In this document: positions 11,682 to 64,000 of the stretch, piece after piece
Layout: each line of letters begins with the position of its first letter
Numbering within the stretch: the first letter of the stretch is position 1
Source of the DNA: Lactobacillus crispatus
Lineage (GTDB): Bacteria; Bacillota; Bacilli; Lactobacillales; Lactobacillaceae
Length of the DNA stretch: 64,000 bases
NCBI RefSeq assembly: GCF_018987235.1
Contig: NZ_CP072197.1
Span: 930,001-994,000, forward strand
Direction: 5' to 3'
Translations under genes and position numbers: made by a program
The notes under the pieces: model-generated
What the model saw: only the letters and a program-made list of their open reading frames with translations
What the model was told of the DNA's origin: nothing
Databases searched by the model: none

Positions 11682-12287
11682 ATGACGGAATTAAAGATTG
11701 CATATTTTGACCAATTAGGTCGTAAGGAATTAGATCAGGCAGTGCAGCATTTTGTGTTAAAACATCCTAATGTAGATGTAAAACTACTTGCGACTAGTCA
11801 TGATGGTGCTTTTGCAAAACTGAATGAAGATGAAGCAGACATAGCAATCAATGATTTGCGTGACGAGAATCTTAACTTTGATGAAACAGAATTGACTCAA
11901 GCTGGTGTAATGGCAATTTTGCCCAAGGGAATGTATCCTAATGGCATTCAAATGATTGAAAAAGACGAGCTCAATGATATGACTTGTTTTATTGTGGCTA
12001 AACCTGAAGAAGAGGTTAGTGAGCTACATTTATTTAAAGATTTGTATCAAATTGGCAGTCAATTCATCGCTTCTAACTCGGTTGAAGAAGCAGCACTGTT
12101 GGTCGCCTCTGGGTCTGGCTATTTTATTTTAAATGAGAATACGGCTAGGTTAATTAATACTGCAGATTTGCAGCCACTTTTCTTGCTTGATCATGGTCAG
12201 TTAATAAAGCAAAAGATAATGGCTTTTTATAAGTCAAATTCAGCGTTAAGTAGTGAGTTTATAAAGCTATTGCAGCAAGAATATTAA
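11682..12287 (+). CDS. Stand-alone LysR-type effector-binding domain protein
   Basis: About 201 residues. It starts as an effector-binding lobe (LKIAYFDQLGRKELDQAVQ, then FVLKHPNVDVKLL) and continues with the alternating strand/helix pattern of the LysR effector domain (ADIAINDLRD, VMAILPKGMY, FILNENTARL). The DNA-binding winged helix is absent. An in-frame ATG at 11670 overlaps the stop of the upstream small gene and is an alternative start. Neither start has a strong ribosome site, so translational coupling to the upstream gene is likely. It may be a ligand-binding relic of a regulator or a modulator of one; the function is not known. Confidence 0.65.
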   Translation: MTELKIAYFDQLGRKELDQAVQHFVLKHPNVDVKLLATSHDGAFAKLNEDEADIAINDLRDENLNFDETELTQAGVMAILPKGMYPNGIQMIEKDELNDMTCFIVAKPEEEVSELHLFKDLYQIGSQFIASNSVEEAALLVASGSGYFILNENTARLINTADLQPLFLLDHGQLIKQKIMAFYKSNSALSSEFIKLLQQEY

Positions 12288-12342
12288 TCTGTAAAGTTAA
12301 AAATATCTTGTCTAAGTACTATAAGATACTGTAAAATATATT

Positions 12343-12357
12343 ATGAAAGCGGATTCA
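12343..12357 (+). promoter_or_regulatory. Catabolite-responsive element (cre)
   Basis: ATGAAAGCGGATTCA matches WTGNAANCGNWNNCA at every fixed position. It sits just downstream of a plausible promoter (TTGTCT at 12308, TAAAAT at 12332) and 29 bases before the secreted-protein start, which predicts repression by CcpA. Confidence 0.7.
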
Positions 12358-12385
12358 TATATTTTACATTCTGGAGATGATTTTT

Positions 12386-12925
12386 ATGCTAAAAAGAAAT
12401 TTGTTACCTTTAACATCAATGGTACTTGTTTTAGGATTAACTGGTTTGGCTAGTCAAGTTGAGACTGTTGATGCTTCAACTTATGGTAATGGTGTACAGG
12501 TTACTATTCCAAAAAAGATGCAGGGTACTTGGTACTCTTATGATCGTAATGCACATAATGGCACAAAGATCACCTTTACTGAACATACTGTTAATGGCAA
12601 ACCAATATTTACCCAGGAGGCTTCGACAATTAGTGATTACTTCAATGGTAGAATTGCTAACCAGAAGAACTTTGATAAGGTAACGCAAAACTGGATGTCT
12701 GGTAAAACTACCAAAATGAAGAATGATACATTCTATGAGATTGATCCGTGGATTACTTTTGAAAATTGGAGTCTTTATCGAGTGGTACCACAAACCATTA
12801 ATGGTAAAAAGCATAACGTGCTGGTTTATTCTAGTAGATATGATGGTGGTAACTACTTCAGAAGCAAGAAATTAGCTAAAAAAATGAAGGACTACAAGTT
12901 TAAGAAAGTTAATTACACGTTATAG
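12386..12925 (+). CDS. Secreted protein of unknown function
   Basis: 179 residues from the ATG at 12386, which has GGAG nine bases upstream; the in-frame ATG at 12377 abuts GGAG and is unlikely. A signal peptide (MLKRNLLPLTSMVLVLGL, cleavage near VDAS) is followed by VQVTIPKKMQGTWYSYD, a lipocalin-like opening seen in many lactobacillar extracellular proteins. The rest is basic and rich in Tyr, Trp and Lys (RSKKLAKKMKDYKFKK near the end). There is no anchor motif. It is a single-gene unit with a cre in front and a terminator behind. The family is not recognised beyond this. Confidence 0.7.
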   Translation: MLKRNLLPLTSMVLVLGLTGLASQVETVDASTYGNGVQVTIPKKMQGTWYSYDRNAHNGTKITFTEHTVNGKPIFTQEASTISDYFNGRIANQKNFDKVTQNWMSGKTTKMKNDTFYEIDPWITFENWSLYRVVPQTINGKKHNVLVYSSRYDGGNYFRSKKLAKKMKDYKFKKVNYTL

Positions 12926-12931
12926 TTTTGT

Positions 12932-12959
12932 GACATCCCTTAACTAAGGGATGTTTTTT
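12932..12959 (+). terminator. Rho-independent terminator
   Basis: ACATCCCTTA and TAAGGGATGT form a compact hairpin followed by TTTTT. Confidence 0.85.
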
Positions 12960-13020
12960 ACTAATAGACGCGGTAAAATTTAGTATAATAGTGACAAAAT
13001 TAATTCTTGGAGGAGAAGTT

Positions 13021-32655: not shown

Positions 32656-32927
32656 GTATTCTCCACGAGTGTGGAGGTGATCCTTGTCGATACTGAAAAT
32701 TATTTTGACGAGGTCGGTATTCTCCACGAGTGTGGAGGTGATCCCAAGTCAAAAGTACGCAAACAGCAACCCTAATTGTATTCTCCACGTATGTGGAGGT
32801 GATCCCTTGTTGACGCTCCCACATCAAATGCAAAATCAGTATTCTCCACGTATGTGGAGGTGATCCTGAGCCTTCCTGACGGCTGACTACGTGACACTAG
32901 TATTCTCCACGTGAGTGGAGGTTAAGT
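32656..32927 (+). CRISPR. CRISPR array 1 (type I-E repeats), 5 repeats and 4 spacers
   Basis: 28-nt repeats begin at 32656, 32717, 32778, 32839 and 32900, with all spacers 33 nt. The repeats share GTATTCTCCAC at one end and GTGGAGGTGATCC at the other, but the four loop bases differ: GAGT in repeats 1-2, GTAT in repeats 3-4 and GTGA in repeat 5. The last repeat loses the handle (GTGGAGGTTAAG), marking the leader-distal end. An AT-rich leader precedes repeat 1 and resembles that of array 2 (AAAAATGATAT... before ATTTAGT). The array lies 23 kb from the cas genes in this window and belongs to the same repeat family. Confidence 0.95.
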
Positions 32928-35001: not shown

Positions 35002-35145
35002 GTATTCTCCACACATGTGGAGGTGATCCTCAACAGTGGCAGAATGCCTTTAATGATCTTAAGTATTCTCCACACATGTGGAGGTGATCCTAATATGGAC
35101 TTATAAACGCTGGTCTAATTCTAGTATTCTCCACACATGTGGAGG
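35002..35145 (+). CRISPR. CRISPR array 2 (type I-E repeats), 3 repeats and 2 spacers
   Basis: Repeats at 35002, 35063 and 35124, spacers 33 nt. All repeats have the loop ACAT (CTCCAC-ACAT-GTGGAG), unlike array 1. The last repeat is cut after GTGGAGG. The leader contains AATAAAAAATGCTATGATTTTAGG, related to the array 1 leader, then ATTCATTTAGT before repeat 1. The repeat family is identical to that near cas3. Confidence 0.93.
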
Positions 35146-35774
35146 CTAAATAGCTGCTCTGAAAATATGTTCTATAGAGTGACTGTTTTTGTATATTATT
35201 TAAAAATATTGTTGATGGTGCACGGAGATTGCGTTCACTTATATAGTGAAAAGATGCTAAGAAATCTAAAATAGAATCGAGATGAATTGGTAATCTGGTA
35301 ATCGTAAGAAGGACTTAGCTACTAATCGTTGTATTCAATTTTGATAACAAATTAGTTAAAGAGCAAAAAATATGAAGAATTATAAATTTAATAAGTTTAT
35401 GTAAAAACAGTGTCATTAAGTTAGGCTATTGATTTTGGTGAAAAAACAATTAAAGCATCATTTGGCTTTAGACGGCCAGATTGATGCCTTTTTGGCATAT
35501 TTTTCTAAATATCATTCGCGTTACACGTAAAAGCGTGTGTTGTATATAGTGAAAGGAGGCTAAGAGAATCGGAGCTAAGAGGTGACAAATATGCCGAAAG
35601 CCCAATTGCAAAGTGCAAAAGAAAAAACCACAAATCAAAGTTCACTTCAAGTTAAATCTTTGGATCCTGGTTTTTGAAATTTCCATTAATTTGGAATGAA
35701 TAATTGAAGAGGGGGACCGGAACTCCCTTCCTTTTCTATATTTTCATTTTAGTAAATTGAAAGTATTTTTACAA
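35146..35774. other. Region with an imperfect direct repeat and only very short ORFs
   Basis: About 630 bp with no normal gene. An imperfect 26-nt motif occurs twice, ATATAGTGAAAAGATGCTAA at 35241 and ATATAGTGAAAGGAGGCTAA at 35544, each followed by GA and AATC. Two tiny ORFs are readable: 35438-35530 (GTG start, 30 codons, KKQLKHHLALDGQIDAFL) and 35591-35677. They look like gene remnants or leader peptides. No terminator is certain. Confidence 0.4.
35591..35677 (+). CDS. Possible 28-residue peptide
   Basis: MPKAQLQSAKEKTTNQSSLQ then VKSLDPGF, from ATG with AGAGGTG seven bases upstream. Hydrophilic, no signal sequence, no recognised family. It is reported because of the good ribosome site; it may be a remnant of a larger gene. 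Confidence 0.3.
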   Translation: MPKAQLQSAKEKTTNQSSLQVKSLDPGF

Positions 35775-37878: not shown

Positions 37879-37961
37879 GTATTCTCCACACATGTGGAGG
37901 TGATCCCAATCAATCTGTAAATATTCAATCAGGTGCGATGTATTCTCCACACATGTTGAGA
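37879..37961 (+). CRISPR. CRISPR array 3, minimal: 2 repeats and 1 spacer
   Basis: One perfect repeat with ACAT loop at 37879-37906, a 33-nt spacer at 37907-37939, and a second repeat at 37940 that is sound for GTATTCTCCACACATGT and then decays (TGAGAGTG). It is the shortest array with a full repeat and is probably a contracted locus. Confidence 0.85.
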
Positions 37962-38047
37962 GTGTTACTGTCCTTGAGCGCACAGATAAATAGCCTGTAA
38001 ACGCCGGTATGCCAGCATTTTTGATAGATGAAAAGTGTAATAATTCC

Positions 38048-55124: not shown

Positions 55125-55393
55125 TAAATTCCCTCCGCGATGTTCGATAACTAAATTATAGCACCGATTTTTGAACCATTGTTGTAGCGCACTCGACAGA
55201 CACCAAGTACGCTATAACATAGTAGCGTTCATTGAGTTCCCGTTAGTTAATAAAATGCTAAAATAGTGAGACTGGATATGATAAGCAAGCACTCATCTTA
55301 GTCAAATTGCTGTAGAAATTAATCCTTAGAAAGCAGCAACAAACCGCACTGTCTCAGTGTTTGAGGCAATGTGTGATTGGGATGAGTCGGACA
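55125..55393. other. Region with degenerate CRISPR leader
   Basis: AT-rich. AATAAAATGCTAAAATAGTG (from about 55250) resembles the leader of array 2 (AATAAAAAATGCTATGATTT), suggesting a leader that now precedes a truncated array. No gene seen. Confidence 0.45.
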
Positions 55394-55474
55394 ACACATG
55401 TGGAGGTGATCCTTTGAGCGTCAAGTTTGGCAATTTTTGAGTTATTGTATTCTCCACACATGTGGAGGTGATTA
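55394..55474 (+). CRISPR. CRISPR array 4, remnant: partial repeat, one 34-nt spacer, decayed repeat
   Basis: The first repeat keeps only ACACATGTGGAGGTGATCC (55394-55412), its 5' third being replaced. A 34-nt spacer follows, then GTATTCTCCACACATGTGGA from 55447 with GGTGAT and a decayed end. It is the array closest upstream of cas3. Confidence 0.85.
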
Positions 55475-55906: not shown

Positions 55907-58657
55907 ATGACAATTTTATCAAATACCACCCTGTCTTTATGGGGTAAAAAGAATATTAATAAAGATAGCGAAGAAGTATGGTTACCCTTAATTGCTCACT
56001 TAATTGACACAAAAAATGTTATTGGATGGTTATATAATCATTGGCTTAATGACGGCCAAAGACGCATTTTGAGTCAGGGATTTGAAAACTCAAATGAAGT
56101 TCAGAATCTTGTTGAATTTATTGGATACATTCATGATATTGGTAAGGCTACACCAGCTTTTCAAATTAAGCAATCGTTTATCCACAATGAAGACTTAGAC
56201 CAGGATTTGTTAGAAAGATTATTACAAAATGGGTTTGATAATTTAGAAGAATTAAAGGCAAATATGGATACTAGACACTGGCTCCACGCTCTGGCCGGTG
56301 AAGTGATCTTAGAAAATAGTGGGTTAAATGAAAGTATTGGCGCTATAGTTGGCGGGCACCATGGTAAACCACAAAATAAGTATTTTGACTATGAAGATCA
56401 ACTGATGGATGATACTTCTAAATATTATCAATCAGATTCTTGGGCCGAAAATCCAACTAGAGAAAAATGGGAAAATGTACAAAAAGAGATCATCAATTAT
56501 GGTTTAGATTTGTGTAATTTTAAAAATTTAGAAGATATACCTACAGTTACTGACTCACAAGCAGTAATTTTAGAAGGCCTAGTAATTATGGCCGACTGGT
56601 TGGCATCTAGTGAATATACAATTAAAGATGGTAAGCGTGTTAGCATGTTTCCATTAATCTCGATGGATCAAGGTTTTAGCGATATTGATATGACATCAAG
56701 ATATCAACAAGGAATTTTAAATTGGCTTAAAACAGATTCCTGGACGCCTCAATTGATAGTCGATACTAAAGAGCAATATCAAAAACGCTGGAATTTTGAT
56801 CCAAGACAAGTTCAGGAACAAATGTCTCAAGCAATCGGAGATAGTGTGGATCCTAGCATGATTATCGTTGAAGCCCCGATGGGTATTGGTAAAACTGAAA
56901 TAGCTCTAACTGCTGTTGAGCAATTAGCTGCTAAGACCGGTATCAATGGCCTGTTTTTTGGCTTGCCAACCCAGGCTACTGCAAATGCAATGTTTGATAG
57001 AGTAGATAACTGGTTGGGGAATATTGCCAAAGAACAGAGCGAAAACCTCTCTATTAAATTGATGCATGGAAAGGCACAGTTTAATCAAAAATATCACAAT
57101 ATTCCTGATGCTGATGATATTGAAACCGATGAAGGTGCAGTTGTTGTTAATCAGTGGTTTAATGGTAAAAAGTCAATATTAACTGACTTTGTAATTGGAA
57201 CTATTGATCAATTGCTTTTGATGGGCTTGAAGCAAAAGCATCTGGCCTTAAGACATTTAGGGCTAAGCGGAAAAATAGTTGTAATTGACGAGGTTCATGC
57301 TTATGACGTATATATGAGTTCCTATCTTGAAAAGGCAATAGAGTGGTTGGGGGCATATCATGTACCAGTTGTTGCTTTGTCGGCTACGCTTCCAGTTGAT
57401 AAAAGAAATGAACTTCTTACAGCATATTGTAGAGGAAAATATGGCAGTGAAAAATTTAAAGCTCAAAATACTAATTGGCAAACTTGTCAAGCATATCCCT
57501 TATTAAGTATTTTGGATGGCAAAGTTTTAAAACAAAAGTCAGACTTTTCTACTAAAGCTGATGATACTACAGTTAAAGTTACTCGCTTAAACATTGAAAA
57601 TTACGATTTAATTGAAAAGATTAATGATCAAATTGAAGATGGCGGTGTCGCAGGTGTCATAGTTAATACGGTAAAGCGAGCACAAGAATTGGCAAAAATT
57701 GCTGAAAAAGAGTGTTCTGAAGATACGCAAATTTTGGTGCTTCATTCCGCATTTTTGGCTAATGATCGTAGTAATTTAGAGTCCAAATTGGAAAAGTCAA
57801 TTGGAAATCACCAAAAACGTCCAAAGAAAATGATAGTAATTGGCACGCAAGTGCTCGAACAATCTTTGGATATCGATTTTGATGTTATGTATACGGATAT
57901 TGCACCAATAGACTTGATTTTACAAAGAGCGGGTCGTTTGCATCGTCATCAAGTTAAGCGCCCAGACAAATTAATTGAGCCTCAACTATTCATTATGGGT
58001 ATTAATTCTAATGGGGACTATGGGGATGCAAATCAAGCAATTTATGAGAAATATCTTTTAATTAAGACGGATCATTTCTTAAAAGACAAGATCAAATTAC
58101 CTAGTGATATTTCTAATTTGGTTCAAAAGGTATATTCAGCGGATACTGATAATGAAGTACAAGATCTTCAGGAAGCGGAAGTTAAGAAATTCAACATTGA
58201 TCAAGAAAAGGCAGAACAAAAATCAAAAGGGTATCAAATTAGATCCCCAAGAGTTGAAAAAACTTTACATGGTTGGCTTGATAATGATAGTGACACTGAT
58301 CTAAATGATGTTAAAGCAGAGGCTGCTGTCAGAGATACGAATGAAACAATCGAGGTTCTTTTGCTAAAAAAAGATGCCGATGGATTTTATTTAATGGATG
58401 GGCGAAAAGTGGATGAAGAAGTTCCTGATAGCGTTGTTGCTCAGCAGTTGATTAGGCTGCCCCATGCATTAACGATGAATATAAACCAATCTATACGAAA
58501 TTTGGAACGAGATACTATTAGTAATTTTCCTGAATGGCAGAACAGTTCCTGGTTAAAGGGCTCGGTAGCTTTAATTCTTGATGCCAATAATGAGACAGAA
58601 TTTAATGGATATAAAATTAAGTATTCATCTGACTTGGGGTTATCGTACGAAAAATAG
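55907..58657 (+). CDS. cas3: CRISPR-associated helicase-nuclease Cas3 (type I-E)
   Basis: 916 residues. The N-terminal HD nuclease has His31, HD at 76-77 (YIHDIGKA), HH at 151-152 (GGHHGKP) and Asp230. The SF2 helicase has Walker A APMGIGKTE (about 323-331), DEVH at 461-464, SATLP and the motif VI QRAGRLHRH. A C-terminal accessory domain follows. It unwinds and degrades the DNA marked by Cascade. AAGGAGAAAC precedes ATG. The first gene of the locus; the Cascade genes follow after 195 bp holding the lone repeat and terminator, so cas3 and Cascade are likely separate transcripts. Confidence 0.96.
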   Translation: MTILSNTTLSLWGKKNINKDSEEVWLPLIAHLIDTKNVIGWLYNHWLNDGQRRILSQGFENSNEVQNLVEFIGYIHDIGKATPAFQIKQSFIHNEDLDQDLLERLLQNGFDNLEELKANMDTRHWLHALAGEVILENSGLNESIGAIVGGHHGKPQNKYFDYEDQLMDDTSKYYQSDSWAENPTREKWENVQKEIINYGLDLCNFKNLEDIPTVTDSQAVILEGLVIMADWLASSEYTIKDGKRVSMFPLISMDQGFSDIDMTSRYQQGILNWLKTDSWTPQLIVDTKEQYQKRWNFDPRQVQEQMSQAIGDSVDPSMIIVEAPMGIGKTEIALTAVEQLAAKTGINGLFFGLPTQATANAMFDRVDNWLGNIAKEQSENLSIKLMHGKAQFNQKYHNIPDADDIETDEGAVVVNQWFNGKKSILTDFVIGTIDQLLLMGLKQKHLALRHLGLSGKIVVIDEVHAYDVYMSSYLEKAIEWLGAYHVPVVALSATLPVDKRNELLTAYCRGKYGSEKFKAQNTNWQTCQAYPLLSILDGKVLKQKSDFSTKADDTTVKVTRLNIENYDLIEKINDQIEDGGVAGVIVNTVKRAQELAKIAEKECSEDTQILVLHSAFLANDRSNLESKLEKSIGNHQKRPKKMIVIGTQVLEQSLDIDFDVMYTDIAPIDLILQRAGRLHRHQVKRPDKLIEPQLFIMGINSNGDYGDANQAIYEKYLLIKTDHFLKDKIKLPSDISNLVQKVYSADTDNEVQDLQEAEVKKFNIDQEKAEQKSKGYQIRSPRVEKTLHGWLDNDSDTDLNDVKAEAAVRDTNETIEVLLLKKDADGFYLMDGRKVDEEVPDSVVAQQLIRLPHALTMNINQSIRNLERDTISNFPEWQNSSWLKGSVALILDANNETEFNGYKIKYSSDLGLSYEK

Positions 58658-58672
58658 TAAACTGTATTAAGT

Positions 58673-58733
58673 GTATTCCTCACTTAGGTGAGGGTGATCC
58701 CATTAATTAATCATTTATTAAAGTAATCCCCAT
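58673..58733 (+). CRISPR. Lone altered CRISPR repeat plus pseudo-spacer (crRNA-like guide candidate)
   Basis: 58673-58700 is a 28-nt repeat, GTATTCCTCACTTAGGTGAG and GGTGATCC. It keeps GTATTC and the 8-nt handle GGTGATCC of the standard repeat, but the stem is CCTCAC/GTGAGG instead of CTCCAC/GTGGAG, with all pairs preserved by compensating changes, and the loop is TTAG. The 33 nt after it (58701-58733) hold ATTAATTAATCATTTAT at spacer positions 2-18, identical to the segment at 58814-58830 next to an AAA. No clear second repeat follows. It would be cut by Cas6e to a Cascade-loaded guide aimed at the cas8e promoter. Confidence 0.8.
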
Positions 58734-58746
58734 GAAAATGGGCTTG

Positions 58747-58780
58747 GCGGTTTCATAAACTGAAATCGCTTTTTATTTTA
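58747..58780 (+). terminator. Rho-independent terminator between mini-array and cas8e
   Basis: GCGGTTTCA-TAAAC-TGAAATCGC (one G-T pair) followed by TTTTTATTTTA. It can end a transcript that carries the lone repeat and guide, and isolates cas8e transcription from cas3. Confidence 0.8.
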
Positions 58781-58809
58781 TTGTAAATTAAAAGGAAAAG
58801 TTTTATTAT
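58781..58809 (+). promoter_or_regulatory. Predicted cas8e (Cascade operon) promoter
   Basis: -35 TTGTAA (58781-58786), 17-bp spacer, -10 TATTAT (58804-58809). Transcription would begin near 58816, inside the guide-matching segment. Confidence 0.5.
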
Positions 58810-58845
58810 AAATATTAATTAATCATTTATGAATTGGAAGAGATG
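58810..58845 (+). promoter_or_regulatory. Putative Cascade target site in the cas8e promoter
   Basis: AAA at 58810-58812 sits where a PAM is expected (5'-AAA-3' is the PAM I recall for L. crispatus type I-E). The next base T differs from the guide's first base C, and then 17 bases match the pseudo-spacer exactly (58814-58830). Similarity ends after position 18. A bound Cascade would cover the transcription start and the leader to the ribosome site. Confidence 0.75.
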
Positions 58846-58852
58846 GTGATAT

Positions 58853-60562
58853 ATGAGTAATGATTTAAGTTTCAATCTGGTTACTGATCCTTGGATTAAA
58901 GTCCTGAAAAAGGATTATACCGAAAGTGAAGTCTCTTTAAATGAACTTTTTAGTAATTCTGAAGATTATCTTCAGCTTGCCGGTGATATGAAATCGCAGG
59001 ACTTAGCGATTCTCAGATTATTGTTGGCTATCTTACTGTCAGTTTATACTAGATTCGATGCAGATGATACGCCATACTCATGGCTGGATTTAGATGACAA
59101 ATGGCGAGTGACTCGGACAGATAATGATGGCTTCAACTCTCAAAAACTAAAACTGGGAGACACTTGGAGAAGTCTATATGATCAAAAAACTTTTTCAAAA
59201 AAAGTATTTGATTATCTAAATCTTTATCAGGCTAAGTTTAATTTATTTGGTGAAGATCCTTTTTATCAAGTTAATCGTCAAGTCTATGACCAAAATGTGC
59301 CGGAAAATAAAAAGGTAGCTAAAGGTGCGGGTACAGTATCAGTTAAACAAATTAATCGACTTATTTCTGAAAGCAATAACAGCCCGGCACTGTTTTCACC
59401 TAAATCAGGTATTGAAAAAGATAGTGTTAATAATGCGGAATTAGTTCGCTGGTTAATTACTTACCAAAACTTCACAGGTGTTACTGATAAGACCAAAGTT
59501 AAGTCAAAGGATAAGTTCTCTGTTTCTCCTGGTTGGTTGTATTCAATTAATCCTGTTTATATTAAAGGTAAAACTTTATTTGACACTTTGATGTTAAATC
59601 TAAGCTTAGTTACCAATGATTCTGCAGATGGAACAAACTGGCTAAACTCACAAAGACCAGTGTGGGAATACGATGATATTAATGATTATCTTCAACAAAG
59701 ATTGAATGGAGTATATCCTGACAATTTATCTGAATTATACACTGTTTGGTCTAGAATGATTCATATTGATTGGCAAAATGGTCAGCCAGTTATATTTAGC
59801 GCAGGACTGCCTAAGTTAGATAGTGAAAAACAATTCCTAGAGCCAATGACGACTTGGCGTAAAAATAAAGATGGTGTTGTATATCCAGCTGCCAAGAATA
59901 AAAATAATATAAATGTCGCTATGTGGCGTAATTTTGGTCAGTATATAAGAACTAAAGCTAACGAAGATGAAAAAAGAATTCCAGGAATTGTTAGTTGGAT
60001 TCAGGAATTGAAAAAAGAAAAATACATTTCTAAGCATACTAACATCAATATAGCTACAGTAGCTATGATAAGTGATGGAAATGCTACATCTCAATCACCT
60101 TATGCGGAAATCACTGATAATATGCAAGCTAAGGCAGGAGTTCTTTTTGATGATGAGCCTATGCTTGAAAATCGGTGGCAAGATAAGATTGAAGAAGAAG
60201 TATTATTAGCACAAAAGGTTGTGGCTTATTTCTATTGGTTTGCAAAAGATATATCGAACATTCAAACCCATAGCGAGAAGAAAAAAAGTAATGATGATTG
60301 GGCAAGTCGAAAGGTAGCGCAACTTTATGACGAACTGAATCAGCCATTTTACACTTGGCTTTCTGGATTAGATATAAATCAAGACCGTAATGTCAAAATT
60401 AAAGAATGGCGTGAAACTTTAAATCGTCTTGTTGCAACGCAAGCTAAAAATATTTTTGTCAATGCAACTGCTGATGAAATCATTGGCGGGAAGGAAGACA
60501 ATATTTTTACAATTTATAATAAACTACGCAGAAACGTCTATGTTTGTCTCGGATTAAAGTAA
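58853..60562 (+). CDS. cas8e: Cascade large subunit Cas8e (Cse1/CasA)
   Basis: 569 residues. The start MSNDLSFNLVTDPWIKVLKK and the block LNLYQAKFNLFGEDPFYQVN are typical of Cse1. It is the Cascade subunit that reads the PAM and hands the R-loop to Cas3. The C-terminal four-helix bundle is helical as expected (EEEVLLAQKVVAYFYWFAKD). The site GATGGTGA precedes ATG. It heads the cse operon, with cse2 starting 10 bp after. Its promoter appears to be the target of the lone-repeat guide. Confidence 0.95.
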   Translation: MSNDLSFNLVTDPWIKVLKKDYTESEVSLNELFSNSEDYLQLAGDMKSQDLAILRLLLAILLSVYTRFDADDTPYSWLDLDDKWRVTRTDNDGFNSQKLKLGDTWRSLYDQKTFSKKVFDYLNLYQAKFNLFGEDPFYQVNRQVYDQNVPENKKVAKGAGTVSVKQINRLISESNNSPALFSPKSGIEKDSVNNAELVRWLITYQNFTGVTDKTKVKSKDKFSVSPGWLYSINPVYIKGKTLFDTLMLNLSLVTNDSADGTNWLNSQRPVWEYDDINDYLQQRLNGVYPDNLSELYTVWSRMIHIDWQNGQPVIFSAGLPKLDSEKQFLEPMTTWRKNKDGVVYPAAKNKNNINVAMWRNFGQYIRTKANEDEKRIPGIVSWIQELKKEKYISKHTNINIATVAMISDGNATSQSPYAEITDNMQAKAGVLFDDEPMLENRWQDKIEEEVLLAQKVVAYFYWFAKDISNIQTHSEKKKSNDDWASRKVAQLYDELNQPFYTWLSGLDINQDRNVKIKEWRETLNRLVATQAKNIFVNATADEIIGGKEDNIFTIYNKLRRNVYVCLGLK

Positions 60563-60572
60563 GGAGAAAAAG

Positions 60573-61178
60573 ATGAGTGATGCTTATACTGCTACGGCAC
60601 GAATAATTAATCAGCTGTATGGTGATGGAACTCCTGATAAAGGTGCTTTGGCTGAACTTAGAAGGACAACAGCTATCACCGATAAAGGCGCTGAAAAAAT
60701 CTGGCCTTTAATTTTTTCAGCCGTGCCTAAATTAAGTACAAATGGAAAACCTACAAAGCTTGAAACAGCAGTTTATACTGCTCTTCACTGTTATGCTGCA
60801 TTTCAACAAGGGAATGATTCATTTGTCTTTGGTCAAATTCCTAGATCAAAAGATAAGGAAGAATCTGGAGAAAATGGTGTATCTCTTTTTACTGCACTGA
60901 AGAAAATGAAAATAAACGACTCTAACGAAAAGAAGGCTTTAGATAGGCGAGTAACAGCTTTATTAGCAACTACAAATATCAGCAGTGCCACCAATTCAAT
61001 TAATCATCTAGTAAGTATTCTTAAAGGAAAGAAAATGGGTGAAAAGATTGACTTTGCTCAATTGGCGGAAGACTTGTATAACTTTCAGTGGAGTACGAAA
61101 AATGCAAGATTCGTTGCCTTGAAGTGGGGAAAAGATTACTACTGGAACGTTTATAAGCTGGCATCAGACAACGATTAG
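60573..61178 (+). CDS. cse2: Cascade small subunit Cse2 (CasB)
   Basis: 201 residues, all-helical with the Cse2 blocks GDGTPDKGALAELRRTTAIT and ETAVYTALHCYAAFQQGNDS, and near the end LAEDLYNFQWSTKNARFVAL then KWGKDYYW. Two copies line the Cascade belly and hold the displaced strand. AAGGAG precedes ATG. Full family length. Confidence 0.95.
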   Translation: MSDAYTATARIINQLYGDGTPDKGALAELRRTTAITDKGAEKIWPLIFSAVPKLSTNGKPTKLETAVYTALHCYAAFQQGNDSFVFGQIPRSKDKEESGENGVSLFTALKKMKINDSNEKKALDRRVTALLATTNISSATNSINHLVSILKGKKMGEKIDFAQLAEDLYNFQWSTKNARFVALKWGKDYYWNVYKLASDND

Positions 61179-61205
61179 TGAACAAAAAGCAAGGAGAAAA
61201 TCAAA

Positions 61206-62315
61206 ATGAATAAGAATCTTTATATGGACATTAATGTATTGCAAACTGTACCATCATCAAATATCAATAGAGATGACACTGGTTCACCTAAAACAGCTAT
61301 TTATGGTGGCGTGACTCGGTCAAGAGTTTCTTCACAAAGCTGGAAGAGAGCAATGCGTTTAGCCTTTAAACAAGACTCAGAAAATGAAGAATGGCTTAAG
61401 AGCTATAGAACTTTGAAAACAGCTAGTCTTTTGGCGAATAAGTTACAAGAACTAGATTCAAATTTAAGTGAAGAAGATGCTTTAAAGAAAGTTGAAGAAG
61501 TCTTTAAAGTAGCTGGAATCAAATTAAAAAAGGACAAGAAAACGGGCGAAATGTTAACTGGAGCACTACTACTAGTAAGTGAAGGGCAACTCGAAAAGAT
61601 CGCTAAACTTGCTTTGTCTGTTGATCAAATAGATAAAGATACAGCTAAAGAAATTAAGAAAAATTTGATGGGAGATCAATCTCTAGATTTAGCTTTATTT
61701 GGAAGAATGGTGGCAGATAATCCAGAATTGAATGTGGATGCTTCTAGTCAAGTGGCTCATGCAATTTCCACTCATGAAGTTACTCCAGAATTTGATTATT
61801 ACACTGCAGTTGATGATGCAAATGCGAAAAGCCAAACAGGTTCTGCAATGCTTGGTACGATTGAATATAATTCATCTACTTTATACAGATATGCCAATGT
61901 TAACATTCTTGATTTATTGCACAATCTTGGTAATAAAGCTTTGACTATTGAAGGAATTAAGCTCTTTATCAAAGAATTTGTTTTGACAATGCCGACTGGT
62001 AAGGAAAATACTTTTGCTAATAAAACACTCCCTCAATACGTTATGATTAATGTTCGTACTGATACACCCGTTAACCTAGTATCTGCATTTGAAACACCAG
62101 TTAGATCTGAAGGTGGCTACGTTGATAAATCTATCGATCGATTAGAGGATGAATATAAAAATTCCTTGAAATTTGTAGATAAGCCTGTGTTTAATGTCGA
62201 ATTGACGAATAGTGAGAATATAGTCGACAATCAGGCTGAAAATATTGATGATTTAATTAATCAAACTGCTGAATTCGTAAAACAGGAGTTAGAAAATGAA
62301 GACAGCAACGATTAG
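61206..62315 (+). CDS. cas7e: Cascade backbone Cas7e (Cse4/CasC)
   Basis: 369 residues. The start NLYMDINVLQTVPSSNINRD and GVTRSRVSSQSWKRAMRLAF are the Cas7e family signature (RRM-like fold, crRNA grip). Six copies would cover the 32-33-nt spacer seen in the arrays. A central thumb region has SSQVAHAISTHEVTPEFDYY. The 3' end overlaps cas5e by 20 bp, forcing translational coupling. Confidence 0.96.
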   Translation: MNKNLYMDINVLQTVPSSNINRDDTGSPKTAIYGGVTRSRVSSQSWKRAMRLAFKQDSENEEWLKSYRTLKTASLLANKLQELDSNLSEEDALKKVEEVFKVAGIKLKKDKKTGEMLTGALLLVSEGQLEKIAKLALSVDQIDKDTAKEIKKNLMGDQSLDLALFGRMVADNPELNVDASSQVAHAISTHEVTPEFDYYTAVDDANAKSQTGSAMLGTIEYNSSTLYRYANVNILDLLHNLGNKALTIEGIKLFIKEFVLTMPTGKENTFANKTLPQYVMINVRTDTPVNLVSAFETPVRSEGGYVDKSIDRLEDEYKNSLKFVDKPVFNVELTNSENIVDNQAENIDDLINQTAEFVKQELENEDSND

Positions 62316-63021
62316 ATTGACTGCGCCACTTCAGTCTTATGGTAATTCTGCATCTTTTAATCAAAGAACTAGTGATAGTTATCCAACCAAAAGTGCTATT
62401 GTAGGTATGATTGCAGCTGCATTGGGCTACTCAAGAGAAGATAATGAAAAAATTTTGGAGCTAAATAATTTATTATTTGCTGTTCGAATTGAGCAATCAG
62501 GCAAAATGTTGACAGAGTTTCAAACAGTGGAATACAGAAAGAGTGCAAGCAAGACTGCTCGAAAGTTAACGTATCGTGATTTTATTCAAGATGGAGTTTT
62601 CATGGTAGCGATTGGCAGCGATGATGATCAATTGATCGAAAACATCAAAGAAGCACTTGAACATCCAAAATTTCAGCTTTATTTAGGAAGACGGTCTAAT
62701 CCGCCAGCTGGTCCACTTAAAATTGATATTTTTGATGGAAAAAATCCCTTACAAGTACTAGAAGATATGCCCTGGCAAGCTTCAGATTGGTATAAGAGGA
62801 GCTTTAAGTCGTCACAATTTCTAACTAGAATAATTGCTGATGCTAGTTTAGATCCTGAAAGTACCCCCTTAATGAAAAAAGATAAAGTGGGCTCTTTTGA
62901 TCAAAAAGATAGATATTATCAATATCGTCCTATCGTAATCAAAAAAGCAGTTAAACTTAAAAATTCAGAAAATAATCAGACATCAGATAATACTGATTGG
63001 GATTTTTGGTCATTTGTGTAG
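62296..63021 (+). CDS. cas5e: Cascade subunit Cas5e (CasD)
   Basis: 241 residues with the Cas5 opening TIRLTAPLQSYGNSASFNQR, then SYPTKSAIVGMIAAALGYSR, and the YLGRRSNPPAGPL motif of the fold. It binds the 5' handle of the crRNA, here GGTGATCC or its equivalent. It starts inside the end of cas7e. Its stop leaves nine bases to cas6e. Confidence 0.95.
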   Translation: MKTATIRLTAPLQSYGNSASFNQRTSDSYPTKSAIVGMIAAALGYSREDNEKILELNNLLFAVRIEQSGKMLTEFQTVEYRKSASKTARKLTYRDFIQDGVFMVAIGSDDDQLIENIKEALEHPKFQLYLGRRSNPPAGPLKIDIFDGKNPLQVLEDMPWQASDWYKRSFKSSQFLTRIIADASLDPESTPLMKKDKVGSFDQKDRYYQYRPIVIKKAVKLKNSENNQTSDNTDWDFWSFV

Positions 63022-63030
63022 GAGGGTAGA

Positions 63031-64000
<970 letters not shown>

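Follow-up and report, generated by a model that had tools for sequence, protein, structure and literature searches.

With the Cas9 tracr-L and the Francisella scaRNA, a guide of short pairing directs the effector to repress transcription; these RNAs use a type II single-protein effector, which sets them apart from the type I-E locus described here. The closest described systems are the CreRs, which autorepress I-B, I-E and V-A systems by partial complementarity to the promoter (PMC13131331) and are widespread in type I and V-A systems (PMC12737573). The element analyzed here lies in a 64,000-nucleotide stretch of Lactobacillus crispatus DNA (the window), and it resembles the CreRs in that a mini-CRISPR RNA and a partial match to a cas promoter are combined with a predicted autorepression of Cas expression (PMC13131331, PMC12737573, PMC12948488). 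It differs from them in its location between cas3 and cas8e, which would leave cas3 outside the repression, and in having a 22-nt guide that is matched to base 21. A preliminary description of this locus had referred to CreRs as described for other subtypes; a CreR has already been reported for type I-E as well (PMC13131331). Judged by title or opening lines of the abstract, none of the papers listed dealt with a CreR of lactobacilli, although the primary CreR paper could contain one. The element is also similar to CreTA and its CreA RNA, in which ectopic degenerate repeats provide a guide that sends Cascade to repress a promoter (PMC9458426). In contrast with CreTA and CrePA, no toxin gene was found here among plus-strand ORFs of at least 80 aa between the mini-CRISPR and cas8e, and the target lies just upstream of cas8e. 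Finally, the short-spacer repression of Haloarcula hispanica was engineered in a I-B system (PMC10989794), whereas the short guide of the window is natural and belongs to a I-E system.

The features of the locus are listed in Table 1. The cas3, cas11, cas7, cas5 and cas6e genes of a type I-E Cascade locus were recognized above the cut-offs of their models and Cas8e below its own, and a cas1 (cas1e) gene starts after cas6e and is cut by the window end. The cas3-cas8e gap, of 195 nt, contains in this order a repeat, a pseudo-spacer, a degenerate second repeat, a terminator, a predicted promoter and the target. As in the CreRs, a mini-CRISPR made of repeat, pseudo-spacer and second repeat (58673-58750) adjoins cas genes, and its guide has a limited complementarity, next to a usable PAM, to a cas promoter, the promoter itself being predicted. 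The sequence, read together with the comparison of related loci given below, argues at a probability of about 0.91 that the mini-CRISPR is a CreR-type guide with which Cascade would repress its own operon through the predicted cas8e promoter, cas8e being the first gene under the predicted repression. A search of Rfam with positions 58500-58950 returned nothing up to an E value of 1. When 58600-58900 was searched as DNA in 75 Lactobacillus genomes, no homologous intergenic stretch outside the own genome was found among the matches listed, the best of which covered 25 bases (E value 9.5e-5), the others being short AT-rich or CRISPR-repeat matches.

Table 1. Features of the cas3-cas8e region (positions in the window)
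Feature	Positions	Strand	Details
cas3 (type I-E)	55907..58657	+	NCBIfam cas3_core and cas3_HD above cut-off
First pseudo-repeat GTATTCCTCACTTAGGTGAGGGTGATCC	58673..58700	+	28 nt; stem 58678-58683 with 58688-58693
Handle GTGATCC of first pseudo-repeat	58694-58700	+	7 nt
Pseudo-spacer (guide) CATTAATTAATCATTTATTAAA	58701..58722	+	22 nt
Degenerate second repeat GTAATCCCCATGAAAATGGGCTTGGCGG	58723..58750	+	hairpin kept, handle lost; L. hamsteri (L090) has a like layout
Intrinsic terminator	58746..58779	+	10-pair stem, then T-rich tail
Predicted cas8e promoter	58781..58809	+	TTGTAA at 58781, 17 nt, TATTAT 58804-58809; 9/12 consensus
Target PAM AAT	58811..58813	+	AAA then T if spacer counted as 33 nt
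Guide target	58813..58834	+	20/22 match; mismatches at guide bases 1, 19, 22
cas8e	58853..60562	+	NCBIfam Cse1 53.4 bits, below the 70.05 cut-off; homologues adjoin cas genes
cas11, cas7, cas5, cas6e	60573..63687	+	NCBIfam models above cut-off; downstream, same direction as cas8e

The array repeats of the same genome read GTATTCTCCACNNNNGTGGAGGTGATCC, except for degenerate last copies, and follow the layout GTATTC TCCAC NNNN GTGGA GGTGATCC. Three short CRISPR clusters of 5, 3 and 2 repeats (32656-32927, 35002-35151 and 37879-37967) are spread over about 5 kb of the window, and the first two are separated by a stretch that by eye is IS transposase-like. Upstream of cas3, at 55385-55474, there is an array remnant, in which a spacer is flanked by a truncated and a full repeat and the last handle ends in GATTA, and a further array lies beyond the window at genome position 1001230-1001690.

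The preliminary description had reported a 28-nt repeat at 58673 with a new stem whose pairing is kept, and both points hold: the ectopic stem is CTCAC/GTGAG, which differs from that of the array repeats in two swapped pairs, both of them compensated, and the repeat folds with -10.2 kcal/mol (z -2.03). The handle, given there as 8 nt, has 7 nt when the repeat is counted as 28 nt, and the repeat is not a lone one, as a degenerate second repeat follows at 58723-58750. The hairpin of the latter is by itself no better than those of shuffles (z -0.95), and its reading as a second repeat is supported by relatives with a like layout. The covariation of the stem was analyzed in 14 of the 20 ectopic first repeats that the comparative scan described below yielded, i.e. 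that of the window and 13 others of equal length, leaving out two identical to that of locus L188 and four with another loop or stem. All 84 cells of the 6-pair stem were paired, as compared with 44-62% of the cells in slid stem controls, and both sides changed in five of the six pairs. None of 500 shuffles came up to the observed percentage of paired cells, count of cells changed on both sides or covariation score, whereas the two weak measures of the five, the number of pairs with a double change and that of pair types, were reached by 16 and 439 of the 500. The 100% pairing is partly circular because the scan demanded a fully paired stem of at least five pairs; the kinds of stem pair were unselected by the scan beyond a minimum of two G-C pairs. 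Of the evidence for the earlier view that the RNA fold is under selection, the compensated changes in 14 repeats stand, and the complete pairing has to be discounted in part as a product of the scan.

Within the window, the 17-mer ATTAATTAATCATTTAT is found at 58702-58718 and at 58814-58830, which confirms the recurrence noted in the preliminary description, and with up to one mismatch it occurs nowhere else in the 2.24-Mb genome. Since a reversed-letter control of the 17-mer also had two matches in the genome, an AT-rich word of such kind is not rare by itself; it is the adjacency, the register and the PAM of the two copies that are rare. Guide bases are numbered here for a repeat of 28 and a spacer of 33 nt, so that base 1 is the third PAM base and bases 7, 13 and 19 are those flipped out in Cascade, in which every sixth crRNA base is flipped out (PMC5904413); the numbering would be shifted by one base with respect to that of E. 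coli (29+32). The guide fits its target at 17 of 17 read positions (guide bases 2-21 without 7, 13 and 19) beside AA, a score that was not attained when 58729-58879 was subjected to 20,000 dinucleotide shuffles; the best shuffled score, 15, was seen in four of them. Because the mismatches at 1 and 19 fall on the third PAM base and on a flipped-out base, every read base from 2 to 21 pairs. This revises the earlier view of a match that ends after position 18 with a sole mismatch at base 1, since pairing resumes at bases 20-21 after base 19, and also that of a full spacer, the guide having only about 22 nt. The AAA PAM proposed at the same time is valid for a spacer counted as 33 nt and becomes AAT in the 29/32 count; AAT is a validated PAM of the I-E system of Ligilactobacillus salivarius, and AAY has been tied to three self-target sites of that system (PMC11288051).

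These data bear on the possibility that an ordinary CRISPR array has decayed to the present element, in which case the promoter match would be a product of chance in AT-rich DNA. In its favor, real array fragments are present within the window, the second repeat has degenerated, and at one mismatch such AT-rich 17-mers recur about twice per genome. Nevertheless, a decayed array is very unlikely in view of the shuffles, none of which reaches the observed match, of the two stem changes, both compensated, and of the terminator that follows, as well as of the like anatomy with other guides in 20 of 87 regions and the guide-target co-changes between related species that are described next.

To compare the locus across Lactobacillaceae, Cas8e was searched for in 397 genomes of the family (75 with a match) and in 75 genomes of the genus (24 with a match), two sets that overlap, and 101 cas8e loci were oriented. 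A long upstream frame ends no more than 30 nt from cas8e or inside it in 92 of these loci, so that the idea of an element kept between cas3 and cas8e in relatives was discarded; the other nine have a gap, or no long frame that reaches cas8e. Seven of the 92 loci were seen twice, which left 85 distinct ones, and the DNA before cas3 was taken for 78 of these and that before cas8e for the nine, giving 87 scanned regions; in two of the seven loci left out, the stretch before cas3 fell off the contig end. The scan looked for a hairpin plus handle and compared the bases that follow, at positions 2-18 minus 7 and 13, with sites beside AA in the own region. There were 103 repeat-like candidates, in 47 of the 87 regions, and a fit of at least 13 of the 15 scored bases in the own region was obtained for 19 of the 103, as against 14 of 8858 cross-locus pairings, some of which probably join close relatives. 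With locus L076, lost to one filter and added by hand, a guide with a fit in its own region was thus found in 20 regions (13 once similar guides were removed) and no such match in the other 67. The figure of 20/87 depends on the threshold and is a lower bound, because the method misses divergent handles and sites without AA.

In the loci that lack a cas3-cas8e gap, the element, where found, sits before cas3, and this is the case for 16 of the 20; the others, which precede cas8e, are those of the window, L. hamsteri (L090/L206), Ligilactobacillus agilis (L073/L269) and L076. The target sites are located 31 to 282 nt ahead of the start codon. Conservation of the guide-promoter pairing in relatives, a test that the preliminary description had itself suggested, is therefore borne out across species by 13-15 of 15 bases in 20 of the 87 regions. 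Loci L036 and L156 scored 12 and were excluded from the count. Upstream of cas3 in L184, a guide matches 14 of 15 bases on the opposite strand, upstream of the repeat; this arrangement is unlike the 20 counted, and the locus was excluded. A second scan, of 80 named loci, gave 18 loci with a score of at least 12 as against 5 of 8062 control pairings, and its count was not used, since the hit in L223 belongs to the repeats of an array, further ones are open to doubt, and the majority come from species already present in the main set.

Once similar guides were removed, mismatches counted by leave-one-out amounted to 11/12 at base 1, 0/12 at each of bases 2-6, 6/13 at base 7, 0/12 at 8 and at 9, 2/13 at 10, 1/13 at 11, 1/12 at 12, 8/14 at 13, 0/12 at 14, 1/12 at 15, 3/13 at 16, 1/13 at 17, 6/13 at 18, 8/12 at 19, 6/12 at 20, 8/12 at 21, 9/12 at 22 and at 23, and 12/12 at 24. 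They cluster at bases 1, 7 and 13, which are bases that type I-E Cascade does not read. The third PAM base, which was outside the selection criteria, is C in 11 and T in 9 of the 20 regions, i.e. AAC or AAT everywhere. These observations are relevant to a second possibility, that a protein regulator with affinity for direct repeats uses the two 17-bp copies as its operators, as a perfect 17-bp direct repeat with copies 112 bp apart, one of them at the predicted promoter, might suggest. A protein would not account for a first copy that lies behind a repeat hairpin and a handle in 20 cases (although this was part of the search criterion), for a sequence that differs among most of the 20, or for mismatches at 1, 7 and 13 and a third base before the match that is always C or T, and such operators are just as unlikely as a decayed array.

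The guide-promoter pairing is also kept through change of both partners, a supporting test of our own that is outside the published definition of a CreR. The clear case is that of the related Lactobacillus loci L188, L192 and L193, in which guide changes at bases 4, 12, 15 and 16 are mirrored in the target. Base 7 changes in guide and target together between L188 and L192 and is free in L193, the pairing of base 1 is not kept, and base 10 shows a mismatch in all three alike and a change in the target alone. The evidence from L170, L175 and L191 is mixed and weaker, as co-changes are accompanied by unmatched ones at 11, 16, 18, 20 and 21. L157, L176 and L189 share a single guide, and the differences among their targets within bases 1-21 fall at 1, 7, 13, 17, 19 and 20. 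The CreR-type design put forward in the preliminary description thus gains support from the guides that fit their own cas upstream regions (20/87) and from the co-changes in one related group.

The closest relative of the window is L. hamsteri, with a Cas8e that is 56-58% identical. The two share a like layout, a 22-nt guide and a second repeat that starts with GTAATCCC, and their guides are unrelated: the window guide scores 17 and the L. hamsteri guide 16 out of 17 at their own sites, and 8 and 10, respectively, when swapped. That the guide matches the cas8e upstream region, as it does in relatives, also bears on whether the element could be an RNA anti-CRISPR (Racr) acquired from a phage, in which a solitary repeat serves to sequester Cas proteins. 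Repeat mimics are indeed encoded as solitary units in viral genomes (PMC10651486), but a decoy needs no such guide, and this element sits inside the cas locus of a complete chromosome together with a guide and a second repeat, which makes a Racr the least probable of the readings considered here.

The pseudo-spacers of the 20 regions have 22 nt in ten cases, 21 or 23 nt in five and 32-33 nt in four, one guide being without an assigned length. Guides of the 22-nt class are matched at base 20 and at base 21 in 9/10 cases each and at base 22 in 0/10. Removal of similar guides left matches at bases 20 and 21 in 5/5 guides of this class at both bases and in 2/8 and 0/8 of all others (Fisher p = 1e-5 for the two bases pooled, which are not independent, the pattern having been noticed before the test). 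The pairing of the 21-, 23- and 32-33-nt guides stops near base 17-18. Because 21- and 23-nt guides are unpaired at their ends, length alone is not the rule, which counts against a simple short-guide class.

Cascade binds with as few as 5 bp and reaches its maximal affinity with no more than 18 bp (PMC5904413), and interference and priming need more than 18 bp (PMC5904413, Cooper et al.), a requirement that the guides stopping at 17-18 would fit. In the engineered I-B system of Haloarcula hispanica, spacers of up to 24 bp caused repression and triggered neither interference nor priming (PMC10989794). In I-E complexes, however, slow cleavage by Cas3 persisted with spacers shortened by 6 or 12 (PMC7296934), so a well-paired 22-nt guide on its own chromosome is not obviously safe. 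Moreover, promoter repression by Cascade drops strongly with six PAM-distal mismatches (PMC5904413), which counts against the 32-33-nt class. The earlier suggestion that a match ending at 18 keeps Cas3 from cutting is right only in part, since the guide is short and pairs almost to its end. We tentatively propose, at somewhat less than even odds, a short-guide repressor for Lactobacillaceae I-E systems, in which a 22-nt guide pairing to base 21 would form a truncated Cascade for regulation only, guides of other lengths would stop near 17-18 in other species, and guide and promoter would co-evolve, with drift mainly at the flipped-out bases.

With regard to the signals around the target, two terminator-like sites were found as against a shuffle mean of 0.1, and the fold of the terminator has a z of -4.95. 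Promoter-like sites in 401 bases were three as against a shuffle mean of 2.2; as matches to the consensus arise in shuffles too, the call of a cas8e promoter is weak evidence by itself. A search for a promoter of the guide RNA itself gave no good candidate, the sole weak site being inside cas3. The PAM starts at 58811, with a single base between it and the end of the predicted -10 box (58809), so that an R-loop would open over the start site, and the earlier placement of the match just after the predicted cas8e -10 is thus correct. In the best promoter-like matches of L188, L190 and L193, which like the others are consensus matches only, the -10 is at the same offset, and other offsets are found elsewhere. 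This crowded arrangement is pertinent to the idea of a CreTA/CrePA-like addiction module, in which the guide would serve to keep a toxin repressed and the cas genes would be repressed as a side effect. Such modules have a similar anatomy (PMC9458426, PMC12737573); here, however, the roughly 100 nt from the second repeat to cas8e are occupied by the terminator, the predicted promoter and the target, and no plus-strand ORF of at least 80 aa starts within them ahead of cas8e, a limit below which a tiny toxin or a toxic RNA would fall. An addiction module is more unlikely still than a decayed array.

According to the preferred reading, that of a CreR-type guide, the mini-CRISPR would be transcribed into a crRNA-like RNA whose first repeat would be processed by Cas6e, leaving a GUGAUCC handle. 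Cascade loaded with the short guide would be truncated, and its pairing over guide bases 2-21 would keep RNA polymerase from the start site. As to how the window guide avoids self-damage, we infer that a short R-loop would license Cas3 poorly, and the chromosome would thus be spared. Expression of cas8e-cas6e would go up whenever Cascade is claimed by other crRNAs or by phage inhibitors, and because cas3 is upstream of the mini-CRISPR, the loop would control the Cascade genes and not cas3.

If this is true, autorepression of Cascade by a built-in guide would be common in the type I-E systems of lactobacilli, and the comparison provides evolutionary evidence for the bases that the I-E complex reads in a repressive target, i.e. 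the PAM, 2-6, 8-12 and 14-17 (33-nt numbering). One way in which a cell can aim Cascade at its own chromosome is suggested by the 22-nt class, which also makes it testable how short an R-loop must be to avoid Cas3. For the use of endogenous I-E systems of lactobacilli, removal of the guide should raise Cascade levels.

Some further observations were made around the loci compared. In 11 loci of Lactobacillales outside the family, the surroundings of cas3 were scanned in a similar way, allowing for several variants of the handle, and yielded no such unit; at least four further listed cas3 places lay outside this set, and a cas8e promoter elsewhere would be missed. In L. hamsteri (L114), a gene at 12197-12994 lies between cas3 and the mini-CRISPR that precedes cas8e, and it contains what we take by eye to be a Fic-like motif. 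In Peptoniphilus duerdenii (L282), a similar unit about 2.9 kb upstream of cas8e reaches 12/15; bases 2-12 of its guide agree with a site further downstream whose PAM is AAC, and next comes a hairpin with a T run. Ectopic repeats 3-4 kb upstream of cas8e were also seen in L232, L247 and L262, where the guides match sites in long gaps (22 of 24 bases in L232); instead of aiming at cas promoters, they may belong to guide-controlled modules of another sort, for example CreTA.
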